From positions 1 to 64,000 of IMG/VR virus record IMGVR_UViG_3300031963_000020: a stretch of 64,000 nt of DNA; one strand, written 5' to 3'. The translations under genes were made by a program, and so were the position numbers. Below, piece by piece: positions 7,824 through 25,633 of the stretch. This DNA comes from a virus. Every line of letters begins with the position of its first letter. The stretch's first letter is position 1. The notes beneath the pieces were generated by a model, which was given only the letters and a program-made list of their open reading frames with translations, had not been told where the DNA came from and searched no databases.

Positions 7824-8144
7824 ATGGCAAAGCGCAACAGCAAGACCCGTAGCGACTTCTCGATGAACCGCTACTTCAACACGACCGAGTTCGAGGCTAC
7901 CGCTCGTCGGATGACTTCGTACCTCCGCTCACTTTCGAACCGCCGTTCGTCGGGTATCGTCACCGCTGACGATGTGAACGCCTACCTCACCCGTGAGGGT
8001 GTCCACCAGAAGCAGGTTCGTACCCGCCTTTCGTTCATCAACGCTGTCCTCGCTGGCAGTGGTGAGTTCGAGCAGAACGGCACGGTCGCTTCGGCCCGTC
8101 CCGCTGCTAAGGGTCGCACCATCACGGCTTGGACCGCTGCGTAA
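7824..8144 (+). CDS. Small basic protein with GC-rich, host-like codon use
   Basis: 106 residues, rich in Arg, Ser, Thr and Ala, and net basic. The predicted helical core contains NRYFNTTEFEATARRMTSY and a DVNAYLTREGVHQKQVRTR segment that could be helix-turn-helix-like. What stands out is the DNA: nearly every codon ends in C or G (AAC, TTC, ACC, CTC, ATC, CGC, GAG), whereas flanking genes prefer A/T-ending codons. It is alone between a TTGACA promoter and a strong intrinsic terminator. This pattern suggests selection for very high expression in a higher-GC host, or recent acquisition. An abundant DNA-binding or host-takeover protein is a reasonable guess, not a demonstrated role. Confidence 0.75.
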   Translation: MAKRNSKTRSDFSMNRYFNTTEFEATARRMTSYLRSLSNRRSSGIVTADDVNAYLTREGVHQKQVRTRLSFINAVLAGSGEFEQNGTVASARPAAKGRTITAWTAA

Positions 8145-10466: not shown

Positions 10467-10818
10467 GGGCCTGTCATGGTTTCGACGGGATGTAGATGAC
10501 TAAGCTTTGTATCCAGTTTGGTAATACTGGTGAAACAGACCACAAATTTCAACTGGCAACTCATACAGCCAACCTCTCGCCCTCGCTGCGTAAGCAGTAG
10601 AGCCGAAGGACCGATGACCTGACCCATATAAGGGTAATCGGACTTATCATATGGTGTAGTGTTAGTAACGGGTAGTAGCTAACATCAAACACAACTACCC
10701 TACGTCCGACTTATGTTTGTTCCTTGTCAAGAGGCGGATGAAACTAAACAAGGAACTATGTGCATAAACGCTTAGTAGGAAGCAGTCTCGGACGAGGGTT
10801 CGACTCCCTCCAGGTCCA
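10467..10818 (+). ncRNA. ssrA: Transfer-messenger RNA (tmRNA)
   Basis: 352 bases. The 5' end GGGCCTG pairs with 3' CAGGTCC (10811-10817), including the G3-U70 pair that marks alanine tRNA, with A as discriminator and no encoded CCA. The 5' part has the tRNA-like GTCATGGTTTCGACGGG typical of ssrA, and the 3' part has the T arm GGGTTCGACTCCC. The tag frame starts at GGC 10555 and runs to TAA 10591-10593, giving GNSYSQPLALAA, with the ALAA ending recognised by host proteases. tmRNA with SmpB rescues stalled ribosomes and tags the nascent chain for degradation. I see no smpB in the window, so host SmpB is presumably used. Confidence 0.95.
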
Positions 10819-10859
10819 TTAAAATTGACGGTTGTGTTAATAATTTGAAGGAGGTAGAG

Positions 10860-14947: not shown

Positions 14948-14955
14948 TAGTTGAT

Positions 14956-15037
14956 GCACTTGTGGCGGAATTGGGAGACGCACCAGCCTTAGGAGCTGGC
15001 GCCGTGAGGCGTGTGGGTTCGACCCCCACCGAGTGCA
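14956..15037 (+). tRNA. tRNA-Leu (anticodon TAG)
   Basis: Type II tRNA, acceptor GCACTTG/CGAGTGC, anticodon stem CCAGC/GCTGG with loop CTTAGGA. The long variable arm fits leucine. First tRNA of the island. Confidence 0.93.
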
Positions 15038-15042
15038 TTTGT

Positions 15043-15116
15043 GGTGATTGTAGCTCAGCTGGCAGAGCAGCGGATTGTGGTTCCGCGGGTCGCGGGTTCG
15101 AGCCCCGTCAGTCACC
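15043..15116 (+). tRNA. tRNA-His (anticodon GTG)
   Basis: Acceptor GTGATTG/CAGTCAC with the extra G-1 opposite C73 that HisRS needs. Anticodon stem GCGGA/TCCGC, loop TTGTGGT. Confidence 0.93.
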
Positions 15117-15137
15117 CGTACAAAAAGGAGAATTGTT

Positions 15138-15323
15138 ATGGCAAAACAAAAAATAAATGAAAATTGGAATGTCCAGTATTATTCACGTGATTCTCAATCA
15201 AACGAAGATATTTTAAATTTAAATATGTCGTGGGAAAATCGTGATATTGATGGAGTGAAGAAAAATTTAAATATCTGGTTGTCTGCAATAGGCATACCAC
15301 TCCAAGTGACAGATAAAAAGTAA
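15138..15323 (+). CDS. Small protein between tRNA genes
   Basis: 61 residues from the ATG at 15138, with AAGGAG nine bases upstream. Polar and mixed in structure (KINENWNVQYYSRDSQSNED, NLNIWLSAIGIPLQVTDKK). No family recognised. It sits between tRNA-His and tRNA-Thr with no own promoter visible, so it is presumably cut out of the tRNA transcript. Confidence 0.5.
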   Translation: MAKQKINENWNVQYYSRDSQSNEDILNLNMSWENRDIDGVKKNLNIWLSAIGIPLQVTDKK

Positions 15324-15325
15324 TC

Positions 15326-15398
15326 GCTGACATAGCTCAGTTGGTAGAGCACCACTTTGGTAAAGTGGAGGTCACCAGTTCAATCCTGGTTGTCAGCT
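15326..15398 (+). tRNA. tRNA-Thr (anticodon GGT)
   Basis: Acceptor GCTGACA/TGTCAGC, anticodon stem CCACT/AGTGG with loop TTGGTAA. Standard cloverleaf. Confidence 0.93.
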
Positions 15399-15400
15399 CT

Positions 15401-15474
15401 GCCTCAATAGCTCAACTGGATAGAGCACCTGACTTCGGATCAGGGGGTTGTGGGTTCGAATCCTTCTTGGGGCG
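15401..15474 (+). tRNA. tRNA-Arg (anticodon TCG)
   Basis: Acceptor GCCTCAA/TTGGGGC, anticodon stem CCTGA/TCAGG with loop CTTCGGA. Starts two bases after tRNA-Thr. Confidence 0.92.
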
Positions 15475-15478
15475 TTAT

Positions 15479-15552
15479 ACCCGCGTAGCTCAGTTGGATA
15501 GAGCAACAGCCTTCTAAGCTGTGGGTCAGAGGTTCGAATCCTCTCGCGGGTG
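15479..15552 (+). tRNA. tRNA-Arg (anticodon TCT)
   Basis: Acceptor ACCCGCG/CGCGGGT, anticodon stem ACAGC/GCTGT with loop CTTCTAA. Reads AGA/AGG, codons common in AT-rich phage genes. Confidence 0.93.
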
Positions 15553-15570
15553 CTAATCTATGGAGGTTGT

Positions 15571-16176
15571 ATGTCGTATCCGTTGACAACAAGAGTACAT
15601 AGTATAAAAAAGGACATGCTTCCTTACACATTTATTGATGATGTATTTACAAACGAAGAATTAAACCAAGTAATAAATTATTGTAATACTTTAAGTTTGG
15701 GTGATGCAACGGTAGGTGAAGGACGAATTGCACCAAACTATAGAAAGTCTAAAGTAAACCAGTTTAAGGTAAATAATCAAAATAATTGGATATTTGATAG
15801 ATTACAAACAGCGGCAACTTATGTAAATAACGAATTTTTTAGATTTGACTTGATTGGATTTGACAAAATTCAATACACAGAGTACAGAGATCAAAATGAT
15901 TTATATGATTTTCACGTAGATTGTTGGATGGGCGAGAATACACCAGCTGACCATATGTTTCCGAGAAAGTTATCGTGCAGTCTCATACTGTCAGATTCAA
16001 ACGAATATGAAGGTGGTCAGTTTGAAGTTATGTACACCAAACAACCAGAAGAAGTAAAACAAATAAAAAATAGACTAATTACATTTCCGTCATACATGCT
16101 ACATAGAGTAAAACCAGTAGTAAAAGGAACACGTAAATCATTAGTATTTTGGGTCATTGGCCCTAAATTTAAATAA
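15571..16176 (+). CDS. 2-oxoglutarate/Fe(II) dioxygenase, prolyl-hydroxylase-like
   Basis: 201 residues from ATG 15571, seven bases after GGAGG. The double-stranded beta-helix metal triad is visible: FHVDCW (His115, Asp117) and MLHRVKPV (His178), with Arg188 (GTRKSLVFW) as the 2-oxoglutarate anchor. LSCSLILSDSNEYEGGQFEV is the typical core strand pair. Family members hydroxylate protein side chains or nucleic-acid bases, using O2. Such enzymes are common in marine T4-like phages with unknown targets. The stop codon abuts the first base of tRNA-Cys. Confidence 0.85.
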   Translation: MSYPLTTRVHSIKKDMLPYTFIDDVFTNEELNQVINYCNTLSLGDATVGEGRIAPNYRKSKVNQFKVNNQNNWIFDRLQTAATYVNNEFFRFDLIGFDKIQYTEYRDQNDLYDFHVDCWMGENTPADHMFPRKLSCSLILSDSNEYEGGQFEVMYTKQPEEVKQIKNRLITFPSYMLHRVKPVVKGTRKSLVFWVIGPKFK

Positions 16177-16262
16177 GGTGCGATGGCCGAGAGGCTGAAG
16201 GCACGGGTCTGCAAAACCCTTGGACTAAACATCCCGCGTCAGTTCGAATCTGACTCGCACCT
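16177..16262 (+). tRNA. tRNA-Cys (anticodon GCA), type II with long variable arm
   Basis: 86 bases. Acceptor GGTGCGA/TCGCACC with discriminator T73, the key CysRS identity base. Anticodon stem GGGT/ACCC with loop CTGCAAA. The D arm (GGCCGAGAGGCTGAAGGC) and an 18-base variable region with a GGA/TCC stem look like a serine tRNA, whereas normal tRNA-Cys is short. T stem GTCAG/CTGAC. Cys charging is likely from T73 and anticodon; Ser mischarging is the alternative. Confidence 0.85.
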
Positions 16263-16278
16263 CTTTTCAGGAGAAACT

Positions 16279-16443
16279 ATGACAAGACTAACACCAGAAA
16301 TTGTAAAGAATACAATTGTTACGGTTATTTGTGTTCTCACCATAGTTATGTTAGCCACCGCACTGATAGTTGGTGAAGTTAACAAACCAGAAGTGCTACA
16401 AGGTGGTGATATTCAACACGCTATGGAGACAGGACAATTTTAA
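16279..16443 (+). CDS. Small single-pass membrane protein
   Basis: 54 residues from ATG 16279, after CAGGAGA. One transmembrane segment (about 12-34, TIVTVICVLTIVMLATALIVG) and a short polar C-terminus. TAATG overlap with the next gene, another membrane protein, suggests that the two act together. Function unknown. Confidence 0.55.
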   Translation: MTRLTPEIVKNTIVTVICVLTIVMLATALIVGEVNKPEVLQGGDIQHAMETGQF

Positions 16444-16724
16444 TGAAGAAACTTTTATTTACGAAACCGATTACATTGTCGGACACCGCAGAACATAGAA
16501 TTCATACTCGTAAGTGGTGGGCGATACTGATTTTGGTTGTAGGTGGTTTATTGTTAGCAGGACGAGTACCCGTCCCGATGTCGTTAAGTTATACTTTACT
16601 GTTCTTCGGTCATGCTGGAATGTTGCATAGTTTCTGGGAGAAACGAGATTATCCTATGGTTATCGTCAACCTTGTTTGGCTTGGTGTTGATGCCTTAGGA
16701 TTCATACGATGGTGGAATATGTAA
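16443..16724 (+). CDS. Small multi-pass membrane protein
   Basis: 93 residues with three hydrophobic segments (about 25-43, 45-63 and 70-86) and a polar, basic N-terminus. Overlaps the preceding membrane gene by one base. Contains His, Trp and Arg residues near the membrane edge. It resembles nicotinamide riboside transporter (PnuC)-like small phage membrane proteins only loosely; no family is claimed. Confidence 0.5.
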   Translation: MKKLLFTKPITLSDTAEHRIHTRKWWAILILVVGGLLLAGRVPVPMSLSYTLLFFGHAGMLHSFWEKRDYPMVIVNLVWLGVDALGFIRWWNM

Positions 16725-16727
16725 CAA

Positions 16728-17153
16728 ATGACAAGACAATGTGGAAGTTGTACCAAATGTTGTGATGGTTGGTTAACCGCCGATGTATACGGACACAAAA
16801 TGGAACCAGGCAAACCCTGTCCATTTGTTGGTGACCATAAATGTACAATATACAATAAGCGACCACAATTATGTAGTGATTTTAAGTGTGGGTGGTTAAA
16901 AGATGATGGAACCTTGTTTGATGAATGGCTGCGTCCTAACAATACTAATGTTATATTCGTTCATTTCAAAATTGATGATATCGTGTGGTATCGTTTGGCC
17001 GAAGCAGGTGCAAAAGTAAACACAATACTGTTAAGTTATATAATTCAAATATTTACAAAAAATAATGTAAATTTAGAATATTGGATAAACGGAGCGCAGT
17101 TTCTTATAGGTACGCAAAAGTTCAAAGACTTGGTTAAAACACACCACAACTAA
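16728..17153 (+). CDS. YkgJ-like CxxCxxCC metal-binding protein
   Basis: 141 residues. The N-terminus has CGSCTKCCDG, then PCPFV..HKCTIYNKRPQLCSDFKCGW: the eight-cysteine pattern of the YkgJ family (zinc or iron chelating; C..C..CC, C, C.iY..RP..C..f.C). The biochemical role of the family is unclear. The C-terminal 80 residues lack cysteines and look alpha/beta. An unusual gene for a tRNA island; perhaps it binds Fe-S or zinc in a host protein modification. Confidence 0.7.
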   Translation: MTRQCGSCTKCCDGWLTADVYGHKMEPGKPCPFVGDHKCTIYNKRPQLCSDFKCGWLKDDGTLFDEWLRPNNTNVIFVHFKIDDIVWYRLAEAGAKVNTILLSYIIQIFTKNNVNLEYWINGAQFLIGTQKFKDLVKTHHN

Positions 17154-17162
17154 TTTGTAAAC

Positions 17163-17236
17163 GGCAGGGTAGCTCAGTTGGTGAGAGCGCACGACTCATA
17201 ATCGTGAGGTCGAGGGTTCGAATCCCTCCCCCGCTA
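17163..17236 (+). tRNA. tRNA-Met (anticodon CAT), elongator-type
   Basis: Acceptor GGCAGGG/CCCCGCT has one A-C mismatch. Anticodon stem CACGA/TCGTG with loop CTCATAA. CAT could also be lysidine-type Ile, but a separate Ile(TAT) gene covers ATA, so Met is preferred. Confidence 0.85.
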
Positions 17237-17251
17237 TAACACGGAGAATGT

Positions 17252-17428
17252 ATGTTTATTATTAAGTTCAACGATATTGAAACACCAACACAGTATGCAA
17301 CACGTGAAGATGCGGTACGAGAATTAATAGGTATGTTTGGTGATATTGAATTGGATGAAATGAATATTGCGTTCTGGCCTAGTGTATCGGCACGAGGATA
17401 CACAAAGATAGAGATAGTAGAACAATAA
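17252..17428 (+). CDS. Small protein abutting tRNA-Tyr
   Basis: 58 residues, ATG preceded by cggaga. Alpha/beta character (MFIIKFNDIETPTQYATRED, FWPSVSARGYTKIEIVEQ). Its TAA is the base before the tRNA-Tyr 5' end, so tRNA processing by RNase P would cut right behind the stop codon. No family recognised. Confidence 0.55.
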   Translation: MFIIKFNDIETPTQYATREDAVRELIGMFGDIELDEMNIAFWPSVSARGYTKIEIVEQ

Positions 17429-17512
17429 GGGAGTGCCGCAGAGTTGGAGGACTGCAACAGACTGTAAATCTGTCGCCAATAGGCCTAGTAGGTTCGAATC
17501 CTTCCACTCCCA
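17429..17512 (+). tRNA. tRNA-Tyr (anticodon GTA)
   Basis: Type II, as usual for bacterial tRNA-Tyr. Acceptor GGGAGTG/CACTCCC, anticodon stem ACAGA/TCTGT with loop CTGTAAA, long variable arm. Confidence 0.93.
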
Positions 17513-17515
17513 TAT

Positions 17516-17589
17516 AGGCGCGTAGCTCAGGTGGTTAGAGCACTGACCTGATAAGTCAGGGGTCGCTGGTTCAACTCCAGCCGTGCCTA
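17516..17589 (+). tRNA. tRNA-Ile (anticodon GAT)
   Basis: Acceptor AGGCGCG/CGTGCCT, anticodon stem CTGAC/GTCAG with loop CTGATAA. Confidence 0.93.
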
Positions 17590-17593
17590 CTTT

Positions 17594-17666
17594 GCACCGT
17601 TAGCTCAACTGGTAGAGCATTCGCCTCTTAAGCGACAGGTTGTAGGATCGTCCCCTACACGGTGCA
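17594..17666 (+). tRNA. tRNA-Lys (anticodon CTT), odd T loop
   Basis: Acceptor GCACCGT/ACGGTGC. Anticodon loop CTCTTAA on a TCGC/GCGA stem. The T arm GTAGG/CCTAC has loop ATCGTCC, so the normal T54-A58 pair is swapped to A54-T58. Confidence 0.85.
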
Positions 17667-17669
17667 TAC

Positions 17670-17742
17670 GCCAAGATAGCTCAGTTGGTAGAGCGCCAGC
17701 CTGAAGAGCTGGGCGTCGGGGGTTCGACTCCCTCTCTTGGCA
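17670..17742 (+). tRNA. tRNA-Phe (anticodon GAA)
   Basis: Acceptor GCCAAGA/TCTTGGC, anticodon stem CCAGC/GCTGG with loop CTGAAGA. Confidence 0.93.
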
Positions 17743-17759
17743 TTACATAGGAGAACGTT

Positions 17760-17873
17760 ATGTTTAATGCAGCATTATTATTTTTTATTGTATTCGTCGC
17801 ATACCGATGGGTAAAAGGTATAGAAAATATGAAAAATCTTCACCCAGACTACAAAGGTGAGGACTTCCCGTGA
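17760..17873 (+). CDS. Tiny membrane protein (37 residues)
   Basis: ATG at 17760, six bases after TAGGAGA. An N-terminal hydrophobic segment (NAALLFFIVFVAYRW) is followed by a polar tail ending in EDFP. Its TGA overlaps the GTG start of a second tiny membrane protein. Such pairs are typical of phage membrane micropeptides; function unknown. Confidence 0.5.
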   Translation: MFNAALLFFIVFVAYRWVKGIENMKNLHPDYKGEDFP

Positions 17874-17965
17874 TATACGCTATTATTACATTTTTAATAA
17901 TAGCTATTACTATAAGCTTGACAACGGCTTGGATAGCAGTTATATTAGAAAAGGACGAGTTTTAG
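17870..17965 (+). CDS. Tiny membrane protein (31 residues), GTG start
   Basis: Starts at GTG 17870 inside the upstream stop (GTGA overlap). Almost entirely one transmembrane helix (IITFLIIAITISLTTAWIAV) with an acidic tail. Its coding sequence contains a TTGACA-N17-TATATT promoter for the tRNA behind it, and its stop shares one base with tRNA-Trp, so it is less certain than its partner. Confidence 0.4.
   Translation: MIYAIITFLIIAITISLTTAWIAVILEKDEF
17918..17946 (+). promoter_or_regulatory. sigma70-type promoter ahead of tRNA-Trp
   Basis: TTGACA (17918-17923), 17-base spacer, TATATT (17941-17946). The start of transcription would be about 12 bases before tRNA-Trp. It lies inside a 31-codon reading frame. 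Confidence 0.55.
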
Positions 17966-18036
17966 GGTCTATGGTGTAATTGGCAGCACAATGCTCTCCA
18001 AAAGCATTAGTCAAGGTTCGAGTCCTTGTGGGCCTG
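17965..18036 (+). tRNA. tRNA-Trp (anticodon CCA)
   Basis: Acceptor GGGTCTA/TGGGCCT with G-T pairs, anticodon stem ATGCT/AGCAT with loop CTCCAAA, discriminator G73. Confidence 0.92.
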
Positions 18037-18042
18037 TTTCAT

Positions 18043-18116
18043 TCCCAGTTAGCTCAGTTGGTTAGAGCATCTGACTGTTAATCAGAGGGTCGGGGGTTCA
18101 AGTCCCTCACTGGGAG
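18043..18116 (+). tRNA. tRNA-Asn (anticodon GTT)
   Basis: Acceptor TCCCAGT/ACTGGGA, anticodon stem TCTGA/TCAGA with loop CTGTTAA, discriminator G73. Confidence 0.93.
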
Positions 18117-18142
18117 CTTTACAAAACAACAATGAGGTTATT

Positions 18143-18400
18143 ATGAATTTGACACCGAATGATAAGTTGAAGTTAGAAGCAGCATTAAAAGATATGGCAA
18201 CGTCTATGACCCGTGTTGCCGCAGAACGTGACTTGCAAAAGAATGTGATTGGAGACATCTGTGAAGAACTCCAACTCAACAAGAAGGTATTCCGTAAGTT
18301 AGCACGTGTATATTACAAGCAGAACTTTGATGATGAAGTTGCAACGCACCAAGAGTTTGAAACCCTTTACGAGACGGTAACGCAAACCACTAAGCCCTAA
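18143..18400 (+). CDS. dsbA: DsbA-like late transcription regulator
   Basis: 85 residues, all helical. The region RDLQKNVIGDICEELQLNKKVFRKLARVYYKQNFDDEV resembles the T4 DsbA double-stranded-DNA-binding protein (89 residues; same order of a basic helix, a 'k.F..L...Y.kq' helix, then an acidic end). T4 DsbA binds near late promoters and aids gp55-dependent transcription, and a gp55-like gene is present at 30895. Ribosome binding site tgagg. Family assignment is by pattern, not alignment. Confidence 0.6.
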   Translation: MNLTPNDKLKLEAALKDMATSMTRVAAERDLQKNVIGDICEELQLNKKVFRKLARVYYKQNFDDEVATHQEFETLYETVTQTTKP

Positions 18401-18410
18401 GAGGTGACGT

Positions 18411-18860
18411 ATGAATCGGTTATGGATGTTGTTGTTCGTTCTAGTAGGATGTTCATCACCAACGCAACCGCAAGTTGTACAAAATTATGAACTTAACTTT
18501 GTAAAAGATATAGATACTATTTTTGTAGATGTATCTGGTGGACAAGTAGTTAAACATCTAGGTGCGTTTACCAATGTTCGTAGTCGCAGAATGGTTTTAA
18601 TCAGTAGTAATATTTTTGTTCAAGCAACGGCAGGTTTTGGTCAGATTGATACCGTGTCTACTGTGAATGGTATATCACATACTAACAATGGATATGTTGG
18701 AACTGCATTTGGCGCATTTCCAAATATGATTGGTATGACCGCAACGATTATAGCTAAAGTAGTTGACGATAGTAAAACACCAGAGGAGTTTAGATATCCA
18801 CATTTACGAAAAGTTTTAGCAGTGGATACTATGCGAGTATTGATACTTCCTCGAAAATAG
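18411..18860 (+). CDS. Lipoprotein, unknown function
   Basis: 149 residues with a clear lipoprotein signal (MNRLWMLLFVLVGCSS; lipobox LVGC, Cys14). The mature part is beta-rich, with YELNFVKDIDTIFVDVSGGQ, RRMVLISSNIFVQATAGFG and MIGMTATIIAKVVD. It would be anchored in the host envelope; superinfection exclusion and envelope modification are possible roles. A gaggtg site lies just upstream. Confidence 0.65.
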   Translation: MNRLWMLLFVLVGCSSPTQPQVVQNYELNFVKDIDTIFVDVSGGQVVKHLGAFTNVRSRRMVLISSNIFVQATAGFGQIDTVSTVNGISHTNNGYVGTAFGAFPNMIGMTATIIAKVVDDSKTPEEFRYPHLRKVLAVDTMRVLILPRK

Positions 18861-18866
18861 TAGGTT

Positions 18867-18940
18867 GGGGTGGTAGCTCAATCGGTTAGAGCACTGCACT
18901 GTCACTGCAGAGGTTGCGGGTTCGATTCCCGTCCATCCCG
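18867..18940 (+). tRNA. tRNA-Asp (anticodon GTC)
   Basis: Acceptor GGGGTGG/CCATCCC, anticodon stem CTGCA/TGCAG with loop CTGTCAC, discriminator G73. Confidence 0.93.
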
Positions 18941-18964
18941 TGTCACACCACAAAGGAGTGTATT

Positions 18965-19162
18965 ATGAAACGTATATATTTGAGTAGTAAAGAAAACAAA
19001 ATCGCTGGAGTCTGTGGTGGGTTTGCGGAGTCATTAAATATTGACCCAACCCTCATCAGACTTTTGTTTATTGCGGCATTTCTTTCACCACTCCCGGCAG
19101 TCATTTTTTATCTTCTATGCTGGATAGCAATTCCAAAAGACCCAGGATACGAGAAGGAGTAA
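18965..19162 (+). CDS. PspC-domain membrane protein
   Basis: 65 residues from ATG 18965 (AAGGAG upstream), covering a whole PspC domain: YLSSKENKIAGVCGGFAESL, NIDPTLIRLLFIAAFL and the transmembrane end PAVIFYLLCWIAIP. Cellular PspC is part of the phage-shock response that senses and counters inner-membrane damage. A stand-alone phage copy could dampen or mimic that response, for example to keep the membrane sealed until lysis (inference). Confidence 0.85.
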   Translation: MKRIYLSSKENKIAGVCGGFAESLNIDPTLIRLLFIAAFLSPLPAVIFYLLCWIAIPKDPGYEKE

Positions 19163-19165
19163 GTT

Positions 19166-20287
19166 GTGAAGCTATTATTTTTATCCGCATGTGGAAAAAC
19201 AAAAGAAGCAGAAGATAATGGATATATCAATTTGTATCTTGCATCACTGAAACAATATATCGTTCCACATTTCGATGTGAAAGTTATTTTGTTTAACAAC
19301 GCACTTAATCAAAACTCCAGCGAAAGTCAAACATTTCAACGAGTAAAAGAGTTTGGGTTGGAACATATAGTAGAAGTAAAGAATATGTACGAAATGGGAC
19401 TACCACAGGAATCTGTAAACTTTCTTGATAATTTGCATTGGTTTGGTAAAATTGGTATCAATATGAATATGTTATTCGATTATGCCAAGATGAATAATTT
19501 TTTTGATGCGGATTGGGTTTTCCACTTCGATACAGATTTAGAGTTTTTACCAAACTTTAAAGATGTGTTAATGAGTATTGATGAAGTTAGAAAAGTAAAT
19601 AATGAAGTTATGATAACAGCTGGTGGTGACACCTACCCATACAATATACGATACAAGGATACAGAATTTATTTTCGATGAACCATCACGAATAAATATTT
19701 ATGATGCATCCACTCTTAGCCATCACTTTAATTTACGCAAGCTGAAGGTTAATAAACGCAATGAGGGATCAGACACATCCGCCTATATGAACAACGAAAG
19801 GTTGGTATTCAACCTACAGCAACAAAAAATACGTAATGATTTTGTTGGGTACTCCAAAGACGCTGCAAGGTCTAATTTATTTAATTGGATTGGTTGTCAC
19901 TATTCAAGTAACTTTGAGGCTCTCGGACATTTGAAAGACGATGAAGAAGCAAAGTATTTACAACAACTGTGGGAAGAAAAGGGAAGTCCAAATCTTCAAC
20001 TTACAATAAGTCACGATAAGGGTTCGTTACCACAATTTTTCTTACAAGGATCAAGTCATAACGTAATAAAAATACAAGTTCGTGGATATTCGGATATGGC
20101 TAAACATTTTAGTTCCGGGTATTATGAGGAAACACCATACAGAAAATATTCAGAACAACGATTGAAAGAACATTACACCGACACACAACACATCTGGGAA
20201 AAAGATTATTTGACAAAAGAAGAAATAGAATCTAGAATTTTTAATTTACAAAACGAAATCCAACGATTACAACAAATGTTAAATTAG
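19166..20287 (+). CDS. Glycosyltransferase-like protein (GT-A)
   Basis: 373 residues starting at GTG 19166 (GAAGGAG nine bases upstream). The N-terminal half has a nucleotide-sugar-enzyme look: MKLLFLSACGKTKEAEDNGY, VKVILFNNALN, and a DxD motif in DWVFHFDTDLEFLPNF (about residues 113-128), with WIGCHYSSNFEALGHL and a C-terminal coiled helix. It would use a metal-bound nucleotide sugar. A third sugar enzyme in the window; acceptor unknown. Confidence 0.65.
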   Translation: MKLLFLSACGKTKEAEDNGYINLYLASLKQYIVPHFDVKVILFNNALNQNSSESQTFQRVKEFGLEHIVEVKNMYEMGLPQESVNFLDNLHWFGKIGINMNMLFDYAKMNNFFDADWVFHFDTDLEFLPNFKDVLMSIDEVRKVNNEVMITAGGDTYPYNIRYKDTEFIFDEPSRINIYDASTLSHHFNLRKLKVNKRNEGSDTSAYMNNERLVFNLQQQKIRNDFVGYSKDAARSNLFNWIGCHYSSNFEALGHLKDDEEAKYLQQLWEEKGSPNLQLTISHDKGSLPQFFLQGSSHNVIKIQVRGYSDMAKHFSSGYYEETPYRKYSEQRLKEHYTDTQHIWEKDYLTKEEIESRIFNLQNEIQRLQQMLN

Positions 20288-20293
20288 CAGTAG

Positions 20294-20378
20294 GGACAGT
20301 TGGCTGAGTGGTCTAAAGCAGGAGATTACTAATCTCTCGTACCGAAAGGTACCGTGGGTTCGAATCCTACACTGTCCG
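20294..20378 (+). tRNA. tRNA-Ser (anticodon ACT)
   Basis: Type II. Acceptor GGACAGT/ACTGTCC with G73, anticodon stem GGAGA/TCTCT with loop TTACTAA, variable arm GTACC/GGTAC. The usual serine tRNA for AGY has GCT; here base 34 is A. An A34 serine tRNA of this box is very unusual in bacteria or phages. Confidence 0.9.
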
Positions 20379-20396
20379 TTTTAAATGGAGTATACA

Positions 20397-20507
20397 ATGG
20401 CTACACATAAAAGAAAAGGACATACTAGAAAACCAAGAAAATCTTGGCAAGCTAGTATAAAAGTAAAATCAACAACTGTTAAAAATCCGCGTAGAAAACG
20501 TAAATAA
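20397..20507 (+). CDS. Tiny Arg/Lys-rich protein (36 residues)
   Basis: ATG at 20397 with atggag upstream. Strongly basic (HKRKGHTRKPRKSWQASIKV, then NPRRKRK). The composition matches ribosomal or RNA-binding micropeptides. A similar basic 30-residue peptide is encoded at 24419, also between tRNA genes. Possibly ribosome- or nucleic-acid-binding. Confidence 0.55.
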   Translation: MATHKRKGHTRKPRKSWQASIKVKSTTVKNPRRKRK

Positions 20508-20529
20508 TTAGTATTTATTTAGATGGGGG

Positions 20530-20558
20530 TTGACAATTAGCAGTCCCCTAGTTATATT
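20530..20558 (+). promoter_or_regulatory. sigma70-type promoter within the tRNA island
   Basis: TTGACA (20530-20535), 17-base spacer, TATATT (20553-20558). It lies 18 bases before tRNA-Lys(TTT) and would drive that tRNA, the noncoding interval behind it and following genes. Confidence 0.75.
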
Positions 20559-20575
20559 ACTGGTGTAGGGTAAAC

Positions 20576-20649
20576 GCCTCCATAACTCAATTGGTCAGAG
20601 TAGCTGGCTTTTAACCAGTAAGTTCTAGGTTCGAGTCCTAGTGGGGGCA
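20576..20649 (+). tRNA. tRNA-Lys (anticodon TTT)
   Basis: Acceptor GCCTCCA/TGGGGGC, anticodon stem GCTGG/CCAGT with loop CTTTTAA. Confidence 0.92.
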
Positions 20650-20878
20650 CTGTTGATTAAAAATTGAAAGTTAGTTGTAGAGCTTATCCGCGGTAGGAAA
20701 ACCCCGCGCTACACGATTTAAGCGACCCTTACGTGAGACACCACTACAACGGTGCAGGGGAAGTTTCCGTAAGTAGTAGTCCTCGTATGTAGACAAACGT
20801 TCGGTGAGGATGGCACCAACGATGATAGATAAGTTCTTCTCTATAAAATGAGAGGATACTATAACAACTCATCCATAC
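20650..20878 (+). ncRNA. Candidate structured noncoding RNA interval
   Basis: 229 bases between tRNA-Lys and tRNA-Leu without a supported gene. It contains a two-part stem GTAG..CGCGG / CCGCG-CTAC (20687-20713), a CACC/GGTG hairpin (about 20740-20755), CCTC/GAGG (about 20781-20809) and a TTCTCT/AGAGGA hairpin (about 20836-20855). It follows a strong promoter. No known RNA family recognised. Confidence 0.4.
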
Positions 20879-20961
20879 GCCCTGGTGGTGGAATGGTATA
20901 CACAGCAGACTTAAAATCTGCCGGCCTCACGGTCTTGCGAGTTCGAGTCTCGCCCTGGGCA
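20879..20961 (+). tRNA. tRNA-Leu (anticodon TAA)
   Basis: Type II. Acceptor GCCCTGG/CCTGGGC with one T-T mismatch, anticodon stem GCAGA/TCTGC with loop CTTAAAA. Reads TTA/TTG, heavily used in this genome. Confidence 0.92.
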
Positions 20962-20980
20962 TTAGTCTGTAGGAGAATGT

Positions 20981-21145
20981 ATGATTAAGTATTTAGTAAA
21001 GATATATTTTGAAGGTGGTGTAACATCCTTCACATATTACGCAGCAGAAGCAACCGAGGCTATTACACAGTTTCGTAATGACCCAGATGCACAAAAGTTG
21101 TTAGAAGGAAAAGTATTGACGCATTATGAAGTAGGACCTGTTTGA
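20981..21145 (+). CDS. Small protein between tRNA genes
   Basis: 54 residues, ATG preceded by aggagaa. A small alpha/beta protein (MIKYLVKIYFEGGVTSFTYY, then AEATEAITQFRNDPDAQKLL). Similar in size and fold-type to the 17252 gene, but no clear sequence kinship. Function unknown. Confidence 0.55.
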   Translation: MIKYLVKIYFEGGVTSFTYYAAEATEAITQFRNDPDAQKLLEGKVLTHYEVGPV

Positions 21146-21150
21146 TAGTT

Positions 21151-21222
21151 GCGGGTGTAGCTCAGTGGTAGAGTCCGTGCTTGCCAAGCACGTTGTCGTG
21201 GGTTCGAATCCCATCGCCCGCT
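21151..21222 (+). tRNA. tRNA-Gly (anticodon GCC)
   Basis: Acceptor GCGGGTG/CGCCCGC, anticodon stem CGTGC/GCACG with loop TTGCCAA. Confidence 0.93.
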
Positions 21223-21234
21223 CTTGGAGAATTT

Positions 21235-21804
21235 ATGTTTGATATGTTTAATAGAGTAATCTCACAACGAGGTTACACAAGATACCTAGAAATCGGTGTT
21301 AGTAATGGTGGAACATTCTACAACATAGAATGTCAAGTAAAGCATGGTGTGGATCCTAATAATAAGGATATGCTTTACCCCATTACATCCGATGAGTTTT
21401 TTGAAAACTGTAATCAAACATATGATATAGTTTTTATTGATGGTGACCACGAGTGTAATCAAGTCTTACGAGACATTGATAATAGTATTAAACACTTGTC
21501 ACCAAATGGTATTATCTTTATTCACGATACAAAGCCGCACACGGAGTTGATGCAACAATCACCGATGCCCAACAATCTTTGTGAAAGAGGATTGTGGACT
21601 GGTGATGTGTGGAAAGCTATCGCAAAGTTTAGAAACACAAGAAAAGATTTTACAGTTAGAACATTTGACATAGAACTTGGATTGACTATATTAGAACGTG
21701 GTGAGGGAACGCTGATAGAAATACCAGATGAACTCACTTATGATTGGTACTTGACAAATCAAGATTATGTGTTAAATTTAATTCCGTACAATACGGGCCT
21801 GTAG
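21235..21804 (+). CDS. Class I methyltransferase-like protein
   Basis: 189 residues from ATG 21235, preceded by ggaga. It shows the SAM-binding pattern TRYLEIGVSNGGTFYNIE (motif I), HGVDPN (acidic end of strand 2), YDIVFIDGDHECNQVLRDI and GIIFIHDTKPH, as in Methyltransf_24 proteins linked to glycan or lipid modification. The last ten bases lie inside tRNA-Ala; the stop is part of its TGTAGC. Substrate unknown. Confidence 0.7.
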   Translation: MFDMFNRVISQRGYTRYLEIGVSNGGTFYNIECQVKHGVDPNNKDMLYPITSDEFFENCNQTYDIVFIDGDHECNQVLRDIDNSIKHLSPNGIIFIHDTKPHTELMQQSPMPNNLCERGLWTGDVWKAIAKFRNTRKDFTVRTFDIELGLTILERGEGTLIEIPDELTYDWYLTNQDYVLNLIPYNTGL

Positions 21805-21867
21805 CTCAGCTGGGAGAGCGCCTGATTTGCATTCAGGAGGTCATCGGTTCGATCCCGTTCAGGTCCA
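21795..21867 (+). tRNA. tRNA-Ala (anticodon TGC)
   Basis: Acceptor GGGCCTG/CAGGTCC with the G3-T70 alanine identity pair, anticodon stem CCTGA/TCAGG with loop TTTGCAT. The acceptor stem is identical to that of the phage tmRNA. The 5' end overlaps the previous gene. Confidence 0.93.
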
Positions 21868-21872
21868 TAGTT

Positions 21873-21946
21873 GGGTGGTTAGCTCAGTTGGTTAGAGCAT
21901 CTCGTTTACACCGAGAGGGTCGGGGGTTCGAGTCCCTCACTACCCA
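21873..21946 (+). tRNA. tRNA-Val (anticodon TAC)
   Basis: Acceptor GGGTGGT/ACTACCC, anticodon stem TCTCG/CGAGA with loop TTTACAC. Confidence 0.93.
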
Positions 21947-21966
21947 TTTACCATAAGGAGGTTATT

Positions 21967-22191
21967 ATGAAAGCACGTGTAGTTGAAATGTTACGAACAC
22001 AAGCGGAAGCAGAACGCCAGAAGGCGTTACTTTCACTCGAATTGTTGATGGATTATTCCGCTGGTATTGGTGACCATTCCACCGGCGATTTTTATAAGAA
22101 CGCAGAAGAAGCATTACAAATGCTTGTTGATGCAGACGATAAGTTAGAAGCTCTTGACCGTTACTTTGGTGGTGACGTAATCGCAGAATAA
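21967..22191 (+). CDS. Small helical protein
   Basis: 74 residues with AAGGAGG seven bases upstream of ATG. Helical throughout (ARVVEMLRTQAEAERQKALL, FYKNAEEALQMLVDADDKLE) with a C-terminal RYFGGDVIAE. No family recognised. Codon use is slightly more GC-rich than its neighbours. Confidence 0.6.
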   Translation: MKARVVEMLRTQAEAERQKALLSLELLMDYSAGIGDHSTGDFYKNAEEALQMLVDADDKLEALDRYFGGDVIAE

Positions 22192-22200
22192 AAGTAGTCG

Positions 22201-22271
22201 CGGGTGTCGTATAACGGCTATTACCCCAGCCTTCCAAGCTGGTGACGAGGGTTCGACTCCCTCTACCCGCT
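22201..22271 (+). tRNA. tRNA-Gly (anticodon TCC)
   Basis: Acceptor GCGGGTG/TACCCGC, anticodon stem CCAGC/GCTGG with loop CTTCCAA. Confidence 0.92.
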
Positions 22272-22275
22272 CTTT

Positions 22276-22359
22276 GCTCTTGTGACGGAACCGGCAGACG
22301 TAGCGGACTCAAAATCCGCCGCCCTCAAAGGCGTGTGGGTTCGACTCCCACCGAGAGCA
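22276..22359 (+). tRNA. tRNA-Leu (anticodon CAA)
   Basis: Type II. Acceptor GCTCTTG/CGAGAGC, anticodon stem GCGGA/TCCGC with loop CTCAAAA. Confidence 0.93.
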
Positions 22360-22362
22360 TAA

Positions 22363-22435
22363 CGGGGAGTAGCTCAGTTGGTAGAGTGCACGCTTTGGGA
22401 GCGTGATGTCGCAGGTTCGAGTCCTGTCTCCCCGA
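22363..22435 (+). tRNA. tRNA-Pro (anticodon TGG)
   Basis: Acceptor CGGGGAG/CTCCCCG, anticodon stem CACGC/GCGTG with loop TTTGGGA. A C1-G72 start and A73 are typical for tRNA-Pro. Confidence 0.93.
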
Positions 22436-22451
22436 CTAACAAGGAGAATAT

Positions 22452-22772
22452 ATGAAAGTGGTAGAAGAATATTTTGATGCATTCGTCAATAAAGATTTAA
22501 TAAGACTATCAGAACTTTATAGTGATGATATTGTCTTATCTGAATGGGATGAAAATGTTTTCGCTGGTAAAGAAGCCGTATTACAAGCCAACGCAGATTT
22601 ATTCAATAAGTTTGAGAAAATTGGTATACTTGTAAAAGCACGTGGAGAAAGTGGAAATATTTCATTAAACGAAATAATCGTAAATCTAGACGATGTATCA
22701 GTAAAAGTGGTTGATAGCATAACTGTTGTAGATGAAAAAATAGTTTATATAATGGCATATCGTGGATTCTAA
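22452..22772 (+). CDS. SnoaL/NTF2-like protein
   Basis: 106 residues, the size of a single NTF2-like domain. The opening MKVVEEYFDAFVNKDLIRLSELYSDDIVLSEW is the family's helix 1-2 pattern ('y..a...gD...l..ly.dD'), followed by GKEAVLQANADLF and C-terminal strands VVDSITVVDEKIVYIMAYRGF. The fold serves many roles (small-molecule enzymes, binding). Preceded by aaggaga. Function in a phage unknown. Confidence 0.7.
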   Translation: MKVVEEYFDAFVNKDLIRLSELYSDDIVLSEWDENVFAGKEAVLQANADLFNKFEKIGILVKARGESGNISLNEIIVNLDDVSVKVVDSITVVDEKIVYIMAYRGF

Positions 22773-22782
22773 TACCAAAAAG

Positions 22783-22792
22783 ATATTTATAT
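22783..22792 (+). promoter_or_regulatory. ATATTTATAT element, late-promoter-like
   Basis: Perfect copy of the recurring motif, 40 bases before the sulfotransferase-like gene at 22832 and 11 bases after the previous stop. Confidence 0.45.
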
Positions 22793-22831
22793 TGTAATAC
22801 GGTTCTGTAAATTTACACAAGAGAAAAATAT

Positions 22832-23524
22832 ATGAAATATGCAGTTTTTTCAACTTACAGAACAGCTAGTACTCTTATGCATGAAATAATAAGAAATCAT
22901 TTCAGCATAACAGATTTGGGTGAGTTAACAGGTCATATTCCTGCCGATAAGAGAAGTGATGAAACACTTCGTCACGGATGGTTAGCTGAACAACTAGCTT
23001 TAGAAGATTACGTTGTAAAATTATTTTCATATGATTTTACAATCTCTGGATATTATTTTAATAGATCAACTTTTGATTGGTCTATATTTGATAAAATAGT
23101 ACTTAGTACAAGAGCAAATGTAACTGACCAAATGTGCAGTGTCTATTATATGAAACCATGGTTACCACCGTCTGACCAAACACATCCGTTTCCAGCAGAC
23201 CCTACACCAGAAGCTATAGATTTTACAAATGCGGGTTGGAATGCTCAACTTGAAAGACAAAGAAATGGACTACTCAGATTTCACGAAATAAAAACTGAAT
23301 TGTTAAATAATTTTCCAACAAAAGTCTGTATTGTCCCATCAGAAATATTTAGTGATCCACAAGAAACTTACTTACCAATATTAAATTCATTGACTGGTAT
23401 AGAATTTATTGCATCTGACTTTTCACCTATATCACCAAACACAACTGGATTAAATTATAGAGAAAAGTATACAAACTATGATGACTTAAAGTACATCACA
23501 GATTCTTGGGGATTGCCAACATAA
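22832..23524 (+). CDS. Sulfotransferase-like protein
   Basis: 230 residues. The N-terminus AVFSTYRTASTLMHEII matches the P-loop-like PAPS-binding segment (R[TS].ST.L). IFDKIVLSTRANVTDQMCSVYYM is in the place of the second motif (R.n..dq..S). The downstream gene at 23544 has the same plan (AVFSTPRTCSSLMCYI; FDYVFITERVNLVDQMASLY), so the two arose by duplication. A Stf0/LPS-type sulfotransferase is the closest idea; enzymatic activity is not certain. Confidence 0.6.
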   Translation: MKYAVFSTYRTASTLMHEIIRNHFSITDLGELTGHIPADKRSDETLRHGWLAEQLALEDYVVKLFSYDFTISGYYFNRSTFDWSIFDKIVLSTRANVTDQMCSVYYMKPWLPPSDQTHPFPADPTPEAIDFTNAGWNAQLERQRNGLLRFHEIKTELLNNFPTKVCIVPSEIFSDPQETYLPILNSLTGIEFIASDFSPISPNTTGLNYREKYTNYDDLKYITDSWGLPT

Positions 23525-23543
23525 GTTAGTGTGAAGATTACGT

Positions 23544-24179
23544 ATGAGAGTAGCAGTATTTTCTACACCAAGAACTTGTAGTAGTTTGATGTGTTATATA
23601 ACATCACGAAGATTTGAAATACACAATCATCGTGAAGATGTGTATACACATTTTACACAAGGAATGCAAGAAGAAAAACTTGAATTCTTAAAAACAACAG
23701 ATGGTTATGTTGTTAAATTATTTTCTAGATATTTTCATAATGATAGAAATATAAGACTGAACGATATGAACTGGAATATGTTTGACTACGTTTTTATTAC
23801 TGAACGAGTCAATTTGGTAGACCAGATGGCTAGTTTGTATCGTAGAATTTATGAAAACACAACATATATAAATTTACAAAGTAGTGAAGTATTAGAATTT
23901 TATTTACAACATAAAGAATATCTCAAACTGTTCTACAATATAAAGACGGATATACTATCTTTACATAAGAATGCATATGTAGTAACATATGAAGGGTTAC
24001 AAAATAATCCAATAAAATATTTAAATTCTGTAACAAATTTAAATTTTATAGATAGTAATATTCCACTACCAAAAGTATTTCCTGCTGTTACTCAAACCTT
24101 AATAGATTATAAACAATATTTTACAAATTATAATGAGTTAAAATTATTTGTAGAGTCTTGGAATTTAATAAAAGATTAA
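23544..24179 (+). CDS. Sulfotransferase-like protein, paralogue of the previous gene
   Basis: 211 residues, 19 bases after the previous stop. It shares with its neighbour the N-terminal FSTPRTCSSLM loop, the VVKLFS strand, the E/TR.N..DQM.S..Y motif, and the C-terminal 'Y..yFTNYNELK.f.eSW.l' ending. It is more AT-rich than most of the window. Likely substrates are surface glycans or proteins; acceptor unknown. Confidence 0.6.
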   Translation: MRVAVFSTPRTCSSLMCYITSRRFEIHNHREDVYTHFTQGMQEEKLEFLKTTDGYVVKLFSRYFHNDRNIRLNDMNWNMFDYVFITERVNLVDQMASLYRRIYENTTYINLQSSEVLEFYLQHKEYLKLFYNIKTDILSLHKNAYVVTYEGLQNNPIKYLNSVTNLNFIDSNIPLPKVFPAVTQTLIDYKQYFTNYNELKLFVESWNLIKD

Positions 24180-24188
24180 TGTTGGGGC

Positions 24189-24217
24189 TTGACAAACTCA
24201 ACTACCGATGTTAGATT
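24189..24217 (+). promoter_or_regulatory. sigma70-type promoter ahead of tRNA-Glu
   Basis: TTGACA (24189-24194), 17-base spacer, TAGATT (24212-24217). tRNA-Glu begins 18 bases downstream, the same distance as for the promoter at 20530. Confidence 0.6.
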
Positions 24218-24234
24218 ACTAGTATAATGGTTAC

Positions 24235-24306
24235 GCCGCGTTCGTCTATCGGTTAGGACATAGCCCTTTCAAGGCTAGAAGGCGGGTTCGATTCCCGCAC
24301 GCGGTA
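24235..24306 (+). tRNA. tRNA-Glu (anticodon TTC)
   Basis: Acceptor GCCGCGT/ACGCGGT with G1-T72, anticodon stem TAGCC/GGCTA with loop CTTTCAA. Confidence 0.92.
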
Positions 24307-24323
24307 TGAGTCAAAGGTATTAC

Positions 24324-24397
24324 CCGCGAGTAGCTAAATGGTGAAGGCAGCGGTCTTATATACCGAAGATATGGGGGTTCAAGTCCCTCCTCGCGGA
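24324..24397 (+). tRNA. tRNA-Ile (anticodon TAT)
   Basis: Acceptor CCGCGAG/CTCGCGG, anticodon stem CGGT/ACCG with loop CTTATAT. TAT reads ATA directly; most bacteria instead use lysidine-modified CAT. So this phage does not need host TilS for ATA. Confidence 0.85.
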
Positions 24398-24418
24398 CTG
24401 CTTAATTAGGAGATTTAA

Positions 24419-24511
24419 ATGCCACATCCAAAAAAGTGCGGAAAGGGTCGTCGTAAGATTGGCTCAAAGAAACGCAACAATCGTTGGAAAAATAGAAAGC
24501 GTAAACATTAG
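24419..24511 (+). CDS. Tiny Arg/Lys-rich protein (30 residues)
   Basis: ATG at 24419 with TTAGGAGA upstream. Very basic, with CGKGRRKIGSKKRNNRWKN at its core and one Cys and two His. It resembles the 36-residue basic peptide at 20397 in composition and location. It could bind RNA, DNA or the ribosome. Confidence 0.55.
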   Translation: MPHPKKCGKGRRKIGSKKRNNRWKNRKRKH

Positions 24512-24741
24512 TACTATCCGAGGCCTTTTCCCTACCTTTCACCTCGTTAACAGCCTTCGGGCGAATGGAAAGACATAATAAAATTTGATAGGGCGGGTTC
24601 TAGGGTCGTGAGGCCTAGAGACTTTTTGGCTCGTTTAGTTTTGATAAACAAGCAGGCGGTTCGGGGAAGTTCGACGGAATGATGTGTCCGCCTATATAAT
24701 GTTGACAAGAAAGCTGATATCTTTCAACACATCCCCCGTAT
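24512..24741 (+). ncRNA. Candidate structured noncoding RNA interval
   Basis: 230 bases without a supported gene. It holds hairpins GCC-TTCG-GGC (about 24552-24561), TCTAGG/CCTAGA (24598-24618), GTTTA/TAAAC (about 24635-24651), GGCGG/CCGCC (about 24655-24692) and GAAAG/CTTTC (about 24709-24725). A TTGACA at 24702 has no good -10. No known RNA family recognised. Confidence 0.4.
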
Positions 24742-24812
24742 TGCCCTCTCGTTCAATGGCAGGACATCAGACTTTGGATCTGATTATCGTGGTTCGAATC
24801 CACGGGGGGCAA
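24742..24812 (+). tRNA. tRNA-Gln (anticodon TTG)
   Basis: Acceptor TGCCCTC/GGGGGCA, anticodon stem TCAGA/TCTGA with loop CTTTGGA. A T1-A72 start is typical for bacterial tRNA-Gln. Confidence 0.93.
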
Positions 24813-24852
24813 CTTGGTTATGTTAAACTTTAATCCATTATGGAGCGTACAA

Positions 24853-25047
24853 ATGTACAAGTTCATTCTCGCAGTAGCAGTAATCGGTCTTTCGGCATGT
24901 GCAGCAAAGGAAGAAGTTCAAGGTGAAGTTGCAGCAGATTCAACCGCAGTAGTAGCACCAGTTGTTGCAGATTCAACCAAGATTGATACTGATTCAATCA
25001 AGTCACCAGAAGTAAAGCCAGTAGTAGAAGGTGAAGCAGCAAAGTAA
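24853..25047 (+). CDS. Small lipoprotein
   Basis: 64 residues from ATG 24853 (GGAG at 24842-24845). Lipoprotein signal MYKFILAVAVIGLSACAAKE with lipobox LSAC (Cys16). The mature part is a Val/Ala/Asp/Thr-rich flexible tail with a repeated 'aDST' pattern (AADSTAVVAPVVADSTKIDTD). Probably an envelope-tethered spacer peptide, for example an o-spanin-like lysis protein, but this is only inferred. Confidence 0.55.
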   Translation: MYKFILAVAVIGLSACAAKEEVQGEVAADSTAVVAPVVADSTKIDTDSIKSPEVKPVVEGEAAK

Positions 25048-25055
25048 TAATATAC

Positions 25056-25125
25056 GCGGTCTTAGTGTAACGTCAGCACGGTAAGCTTCCAGCTTACAAG
25101 AGCAGTTCAACTCTGTCAGACCGCT
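25056..25125 (+). tRNA. tRNA-Gly (anticodon TCC), second divergent copy
   Basis: Acceptor GCGGTCT/AGACCGC, anticodon stem GTAAG/CTTAC with loop CTTCCAG. The T stem has an A-C mismatch, and the sequence differs widely from the first Gly(TCC). Confidence 0.8.
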
Positions 25126-25131
25126 CCACTT

Positions 25132-25222
25132 TGTAAGAACAATCCCGTGCGAGGTGTGGCGCACTCGTTGTGGTGGCGGGAAGAGTAGTATTAACTACTT
25201 GAAAGGGATCTGTTCTTACATT
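25132..25222 (+). ncRNA. Candidate novel small structured RNA
   Basis: A 10-bp perfect stem TGTAAGAACA (25132-25141) with TGTTCTTACA (25211-25220) continues as ATCCC/GGGAT across a one-base bulge. Inside are a GTGCG/CGCAC hairpin (25147-25164), a G/T-rich linker, and an AGTAGT/ACTACT hairpin (25184-25199). T-rich sequence follows. It is a closed three-way-junction-like RNA of about 90 bases between tRNA-Gly and tRNA-Ser. Not a tRNA (no T arm or anticodon arm). Confidence 0.65.
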
Positions 25223-25231
25223 TATTTTTCT

Positions 25232-25316
25232 GGACAGGTGGCAGAGTGGTCTATTGCAACGGTCTTGAAAACCGTCGAGCTGAGAGGCTCCGAGAGTTCG
25301 AATCCCTCCCTGTCCG
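25232..25316 (+). tRNA. tRNA-Ser (anticodon TGA)
   Basis: Type II. Acceptor GGACAGG/CCTGTCC with G73, anticodon stem ACGGT/ACCGT with loop CTTGAAA, long variable arm. Confidence 0.93.
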
Positions 25317-25331
25317 CTTAATGAGGTTATT

Positions 25332-25532
25332 ATGATACACGAATTTAAAACACCGTTCGATGTAAAAACTCCGCATGGAGATGGCCGAGCAATCTTATTG
25401 ATTGATTATGGTATTGATGTAAATACTGTTTGGGTCGTTAAACTTGACGGTGGAATCGTGAAGCATTACTATTCGGATGATATTCGTATTTACGACAACC
25501 CTATGAATGGTAAGGGTTGGAACGTAGAATAA
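25332..25532 (+). CDS. Small protein, unknown function
   Basis: 66 residues, ATG preceded by tgagg. A compact beta-rich protein (HEFKTPFDVKTPHGDGRAIL, VWVVKLDGGIVKHYYSDDIR), possibly an SH3-like barrel as in small phage RNA- or protein-binding proteins. No family recognised. Confidence 0.55.
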   Translation: MIHEFKTPFDVKTPHGDGRAILLIDYGIDVNTVWVVKLDGGIVKHYYSDDIRIYDNPMNGKGWNVE

Positions 25533-25541
25533 TAAATATCT

Positions 25542-25613
25542 GCCACAATAGCTCAGCGGTAGAGCACTCGATTTGTAATCGAGCGGTCGTCGGTTCAATC
25601 CCGACTTGTGGCT
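25542..25613 (+). tRNA. tRNA-Thr (anticodon TGT)
   Basis: Acceptor GCCACAA/TTGTGGC, anticodon stem CTCGA/TCGAG with loop TTTGTAA. Last tRNA of the island. Confidence 0.93.
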
Positions 25614-25633
25614 CTTAAAACAACATAATCTAG

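Follow-up and report, generated by a model that had tools for sequence, protein, structure and literature searches.

Does a phage that encodes tRNAs for all 20 amino acids free itself from the tRNA pool of its host, or is such a set kept for another reason? The question is raised by a locus in the first 64,000 nucleotides (the stretch analyzed here, called the window) of IMG/VR record IMGVR_UViG_3300031963_000020, a T4-like phage record of 148,340 bases with a genome GC content of 38.9%. The locus and the genes that delimit or characterize it are the following.

14955..25614, + strand: tRNA array, 29 genes interleaved with short protein genes (ARAGORN, Rfam RF00005, density)
14955..15038, + strand: tRNA-Leu(UAG), first gene of the array (ARAGORN, Rfam)
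17163..17236, + strand: tRNA-Met(CAU), elongator-like (ARAGORN, clade comparison)
24324..24398, + strand: tRNA-Ile(UAU) (ARAGORN, clade comparison)
25542..25614, + strand: tRNA-Thr(UGU), last gene of the array (ARAGORN, Rfam)

ARAGORN called 29 tRNAs between 14955 and 25614, every one on the + strand, and the identical 29, with scores of 41.7-73.2 bits, exceeded the gathering score of Rfam RF00005. The array contains three genes each for Leu (UAG, UAA, CAA) and Gly (GCC, UCC, UCC), two each for Ser (ACU, UGA), Thr (GGU, UGU), Arg (UCG, UCU), Ile (GAU, UAU) and Lys (CUU, UUU), and a single gene for each of the remaining 13 amino acids. The original prediction had given the same total, the same count per amino acid and the coverage of all 20, and both scans, each calling 29 of 29, agree with it exactly. 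Its remark that such sets are rare also stands, full 20-amino-acid sets being uncommon. Chance calls averaged 0.03 per 64-kb window in 30 Markov-1 surrogates of the same dinucleotide make-up, and scanning the remaining 84 kb found no additional tRNA. At 2.72 tRNAs per kb (29 in 10,660 bases), the locus qualifies as a tRNA array unit, whose published definition asks for no fewer than 20 tRNAs and for 2 or more of them per kb (PMC5966550). When the array DNA was compared with other phages, matches spanned single tRNA-sized stretches only. A gap of 228 nt between tRNA-Lys and tRNA-Leu (20651-20878) is 74-87% conserved in five relatives and has no ATG frame of 20 codons.

The window also holds a tmRNA gene, which had gone unnoticed in the original prediction.

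10467..10821, + strand: complete one-piece tmRNA gene, ssrA (Rfam RF00023, alignment, relatives)
10555..10593, + strand: tmRNA tag frame, GNSYSQPLALAA plus stop (sequence, translation, homologous tags in relatives)

The match to Rfam RF00023 covers the full model (positions 1-374) and scores 122.7 bits against a gathering score of 47 (E = 1.9e-47). The gene combines the tag GNSYSQPLALAA with an alanine-type acceptor stem that includes the G3-U70 pair (GGGCCTG/CAGGTCC). A different tag printed by ARAGORN (ANIKHNYP...) was rejected, because the relatives and the standard tag position both give the frame listed above. A tmRNA was found in 9 of the 15 records searched, namely in all eight relatives that include the region and in the 294-kb phage L064; a search of the whole genome of Flavobacterium phage immuto found none. 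The tags of the clade (GNSYSQPLALAA, GNYNSPALALAA, GNTQLALAA, GNYTLALAA, GNNQLALAA and GNQNLALAA) all end in ALAA. The G3-U70 pair is kept in every tmRNA of the clade, and where the acceptor stem varies, pairing is retained by compensatory changes. Phage tmRNAs have precedents: one survey (PMC9004378) reported them in 402 of roughly 18,000 phage genomes.

Elsewhere, the record encodes a terminase, portal, capsid and sheath of T4 type (phrog_2, 213, 138 and 23) and likewise T4-type baseplate wedge proteins, as is characteristic of a T4-like myovirus. The closest relatives are IMG/VR contigs, and G008 is in effect the phage described here. Among isolates, the terminase and capsid were best matched, at about 52% identity, by Flavobacterium phages including immuto and by Microcystis phage Mel-JY01, followed by Rhodothermus phage RM378. 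The phage is a member of a T4-like lineage from fresh water that has relatives among the Flavobacterium phages, and its host is likely to belong to the Bacteroidota. The tmRNA tag leaves the host unsettled, since a search by tag motif found GNxx[LF]ALAA tags in Bacteroidota, Chloroflexi and Acidobacteria, and since the phage tmRNAs are closer to one another than to any bacterial tmRNA. The original prediction had tentatively proposed a GC-rich host on account of a gene at 7824-8144, which encodes 106 amino acids at 60% GC. This proposal fails: the gene is GC-rich wherever it occurs among the relatives (GC 0.52-0.61), and the nearest isolates infect Flavobacterium. Its clade-wide conservation (61-90% identity) and composition mark it as an old resident rather than a recent acquisition from the host. 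A Mom-type DNA-modification protein is encoded at L010:14865-15455, with a second family member located nearby in the record. A short adenylosuccinate synthetase is encoded at 3678-4691; it is PurA-like (E = 4e-57) rather than PurZ-like (E = 6e-15), and the idea of a Z-genome, which this gene had raised, was discarded.

Full coverage of the amino acids is not fixed in the clade, where it ranges from 18 to 20. It is 20 in G003, 19 in G001, which lacks His, and 18 in G004, G007 and, by its list, L291, all of which lack His and Phe. The order of the array and its anticodons are nearly retained among the relatives, but genes with the same anticodon share 58% to 100% identity, often only 60-80%. 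The genes are intact, and the tmRNA, the array order and the anticodon set persist across the clade while the tRNA bodies are replaced. One gene of the array looks degenerate.

25056..25128, + strand: second tRNA-Gly(UCC), degenerate (Rfam score, fold, clade comparison)

This gene has the lowest score of the 29, has no G18-G19 doublet in the D loop, and has a weak T stem and an encoded CCA. It is identical to its counterparts in G003 and G004 at 72 of 73 positions, while the flanks are just 72-79% identical; a more diverged matching element in G001 was not called by ARAGORN. BLAST searches of the phage collection with this gene, the tRNA-Cys and the tmRNA returned no matches, and neither did a search of 297 genomes with the second tRNA-Gly, which lacked a positive control and is uninformative. 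A degenerate-looking gene in a mosaic array, from which single tRNAs come and go among relatives, is what might be expected if tRNAs simply piled up by recombination and contributed little. We find this account very improbable, given that order and anticodons are retained, that the acceptor stem of the tmRNA shows compensatory changes, and that even the second tRNA-Gly is highly conserved.

If U34 is assumed to read all four codons of a family box, the array decodes all sense codons except AGC; under strict wobble, 13 codons are left without an array tRNA. AGC accounts for 113 of 44,530 phage codons (0.25%) and is the rarest serine codon, while AGU is the commonest. The original prediction had called for a comparison of codon use with anticodons, and the codon choice of the phage does suit the set. 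The phage might carry tRNAs for codons that are commoner in its own genes than in those of the host. The preference for the A-ending codon of the phage U34 tRNA in most four-codon boxes (GCA 66%, CCA 67%) speaks for such compensation, as does the pairing of AGU as top serine codon with a phage tRNA-Ser(ACU). However, the fit is correlative and partly shared with relatives that have no array: immuto, with four tRNAs annotated in the stretch of its genome that was read, likewise prefers GCA and CCA. Moreover, the set spans every amino acid, even those without codon choice. We consider codon compensation a rather unlikely reason for the array. The AGU share of AGY codons is 0.85-0.93 in clade members with enough codons, with the exception of G005 (0.71, few codons). 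It is lower, at 0.61-0.78, in Chryseobacterium, immuto and the 294-kb phage, although the remaining NNY boxes do not differ in this way. Avoidance of AGC was dropped as proof of decoding by A34, because NGC codons are generally rare in the genome.

Two tRNAs of the array depart from their bacterial counterparts in anticodon or architecture.

20294..20378, + strand: tRNA-Ser(ACU), with A34 (ARAGORN, Rfam; in all full arrays of the clade)
16177..16263, + strand: tRNA-Cys(GCA), long variable arm (class II-like), U73 (fold, clade comparison)

The bacterial counterparts examined for tRNA-Ser(ACU) have GCU, and in the full arrays of the clade A34 occurs on three or more distinct tRNA bodies. Another A34 anticodon occurs in the relative G005, in a tRNA-Gly(ACC) at L219:15114-15187. 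The long variable arm of tRNA-Cys is present in G000, G001, G004, G005 and G007, where the stems differ yet pair, and the gene is short in G003, L064 and G002. The Bacteroidota tRNA-Cys genes examined are of class I with a short arm, and a literature search for long-arm tRNA-Cys in phages found nothing relevant. These departures bear on a published model in which phage tRNAs stand in for host tRNAs that toxins have cut, and themselves resist cleavage through altered anticodon loops (van den Berg et al. 2023, PMC10264068). Replacement of G34 by A34 in Ser on several bodies, G37 in Phe and A38 in Tyr, and the added arm of tRNA-Cys would all fit this model. In a small bacterial sample that may not represent the host, the Ser, Phe, Tyr and second Gly loops differ from the bacterial ones, but 15 of 19 comparable genes carry the commonest bacterial loop. 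For the Ser, Phe, Tyr and Cys tRNAs evasion of anticodon nucleases is possible; as the reason for the whole array it is a tentative proposal that we would not expect to hold.

Next to the second tRNA-Gly lies a further element that was absent from the original prediction.

25132..25221, + strand: structured RNA of about 85 nt, long closing stem and three hairpins (fold z-score, covariation)

The element sits between the second tRNA-Gly(UCC) and tRNA-Ser(UGA), folds with a z-score of -3.86, and matches no Rfam family. Across six members of the clade, 97.3% of cells are paired and six pairs are changed on both sides, whereas pairing drops to 42-54% in slid controls. Seven viral contigs carry its core motif; in L291, L293 and L296, which were scanned for tRNAs, and in the previously known records, the motif is at the same position in the array. 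This constant place between tRNA genes suggests that the RNA may be processed together with its neighbors. It is also conceivable that the structured RNA, as a new regulatory or decoy family, belongs to one functional set of altered translation RNAs together with the A34 tRNA-Ser, the long-arm tRNA-Cys and the elbow-poor second tRNA-Gly, a set that resists or redirects host control of tRNAs during infection, but we regard this as a speculative and quite unlikely idea.

The protein genes bear on the question of dependence on the host. Three of those within the array have recognizable domains.

15550..16176, + strand: 2OG-Fe(II) oxygenase gene (Pfam PF13640, E = 2.2e-12)
18143..18400, + strand: DsbA-like transcription regulator gene (Pfam PF11126, E = 1.7e-9)
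21181..21804, + strand: methyltransferase gene (Pfam PF13578, E = 2.3e-10, residues 70-117)

The annotated methyltransferase gene overlaps a tRNA-Gly, and its true start is probably downstream of it. Two further genes of the array (22832-23524 and 23544-24179) are distant paralogues with about 28% identity and no Pfam match. A direct search of the record for SmpB was negative, and Pfam searches of most predicted proteins, including most small frames, found neither an aminoacyl-tRNA synthetase nor a release or elongation factor. The sole CAU tRNA of the array resembles bacterial elongator tRNA-Met and, judging from its sequence, is presumably not an initiator; the set has no initiator-like tRNA-Met. 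Charging, initiation and tmRNA loading would consequently need the host, and any function of the tmRNA in ribosome rescue would require host SmpB. Near independence from the host, as originally predicted from the array, was therefore an overstatement. A phage-type ribosomal protein S21 (L007:11304-11522) is encoded elsewhere in the record, as is a ClpP-like protease.

Taken together, we favor, with a probability of roughly 0.6, the interpretation that a tmRNA and a nearly decoding-complete tRNA array together make up a kit with which the phage supports translation. It is supported by the twofold confirmation of the 29 genes, by AGC, the rarest serine codon, being the only one left unread under four-way U34 reading, by the kept order and anticodons, by the conserved tmRNA and by the presence of S21. 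It is weakened by the incomplete coverage in relatives, by the failure to find SmpB or synthetases, and by the correlative nature of the codon fit. In such a kit, the array and tmRNA would be expressed during infection, the tRNAs would be charged by host synthetases, and the tmRNA would be used with host SmpB to free stalled ribosomes late in infection. The selective reason may be that phage-encoded tRNAs and tmRNA keep late translation going when the tRNAs of the host are shut off, turned over or attacked.

The combination of a large tRNA set with a tmRNA is already known from Cluster C1 mycobacteriophages (Bxz1-like; McGee PMC9583779, Lethe PMC13097058, IkeLoa PMC9670876), which are likewise myoviruses, with 31-34 tRNAs, one tmRNA and genomes of similar size (about 155 kb). 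In contrast to the phage described here, they infect actinobacteria, have about 65% GC, and carry their RNA genes in several clusters (five in IkeLoa, PMC9670876); no sequence kinship of our record with Cluster C1 or Bxz1-type phages was seen. The Xanthomonas jumbo phage XacN1 (PMC5852040) also has tRNAs for all 20 amino acids, but its genome is 385 kb, the set is present in each 66-kb terminal repeat (56 tRNAs in all), and it encodes suppressor tRNAs and tRNA-processing enzymes. The tRNA array units of mycobacteria, their phages and plasmids (PMC5966550) belong to the same density class and can include a tmRNA and a structured RNA, although the latter is about 430 nt long. Stenotrophomonas phage Marzo (PMC8928761), a 159-kb myophage with 23 tRNAs and a tmRNA, has fewer tRNAs and a host from another phylum, and huge phages carry up to 67 tRNAs, some together with tmRNA and SmpB (PMC7162821). 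Immuto (MW353177), although among the nearest isolates, differs in its few annotated tRNAs and its lack of a tmRNA. What is new is therefore an example in an unrelated lineage, together with some details, of RNA kits known from few other phage groups: a near-complete tRNA set with tmRNA, best known from actinobacterial phages, now occurs in a freshwater T4-like lineage. That unrelated phages have this combination suggests a shared selection to keep translation running. The clade, which also holds a structured RNA absent from Rfam, offers natural variants (18-20 amino acids, different tags, swapped tRNA bodies) for testing why phages retain tRNAs.
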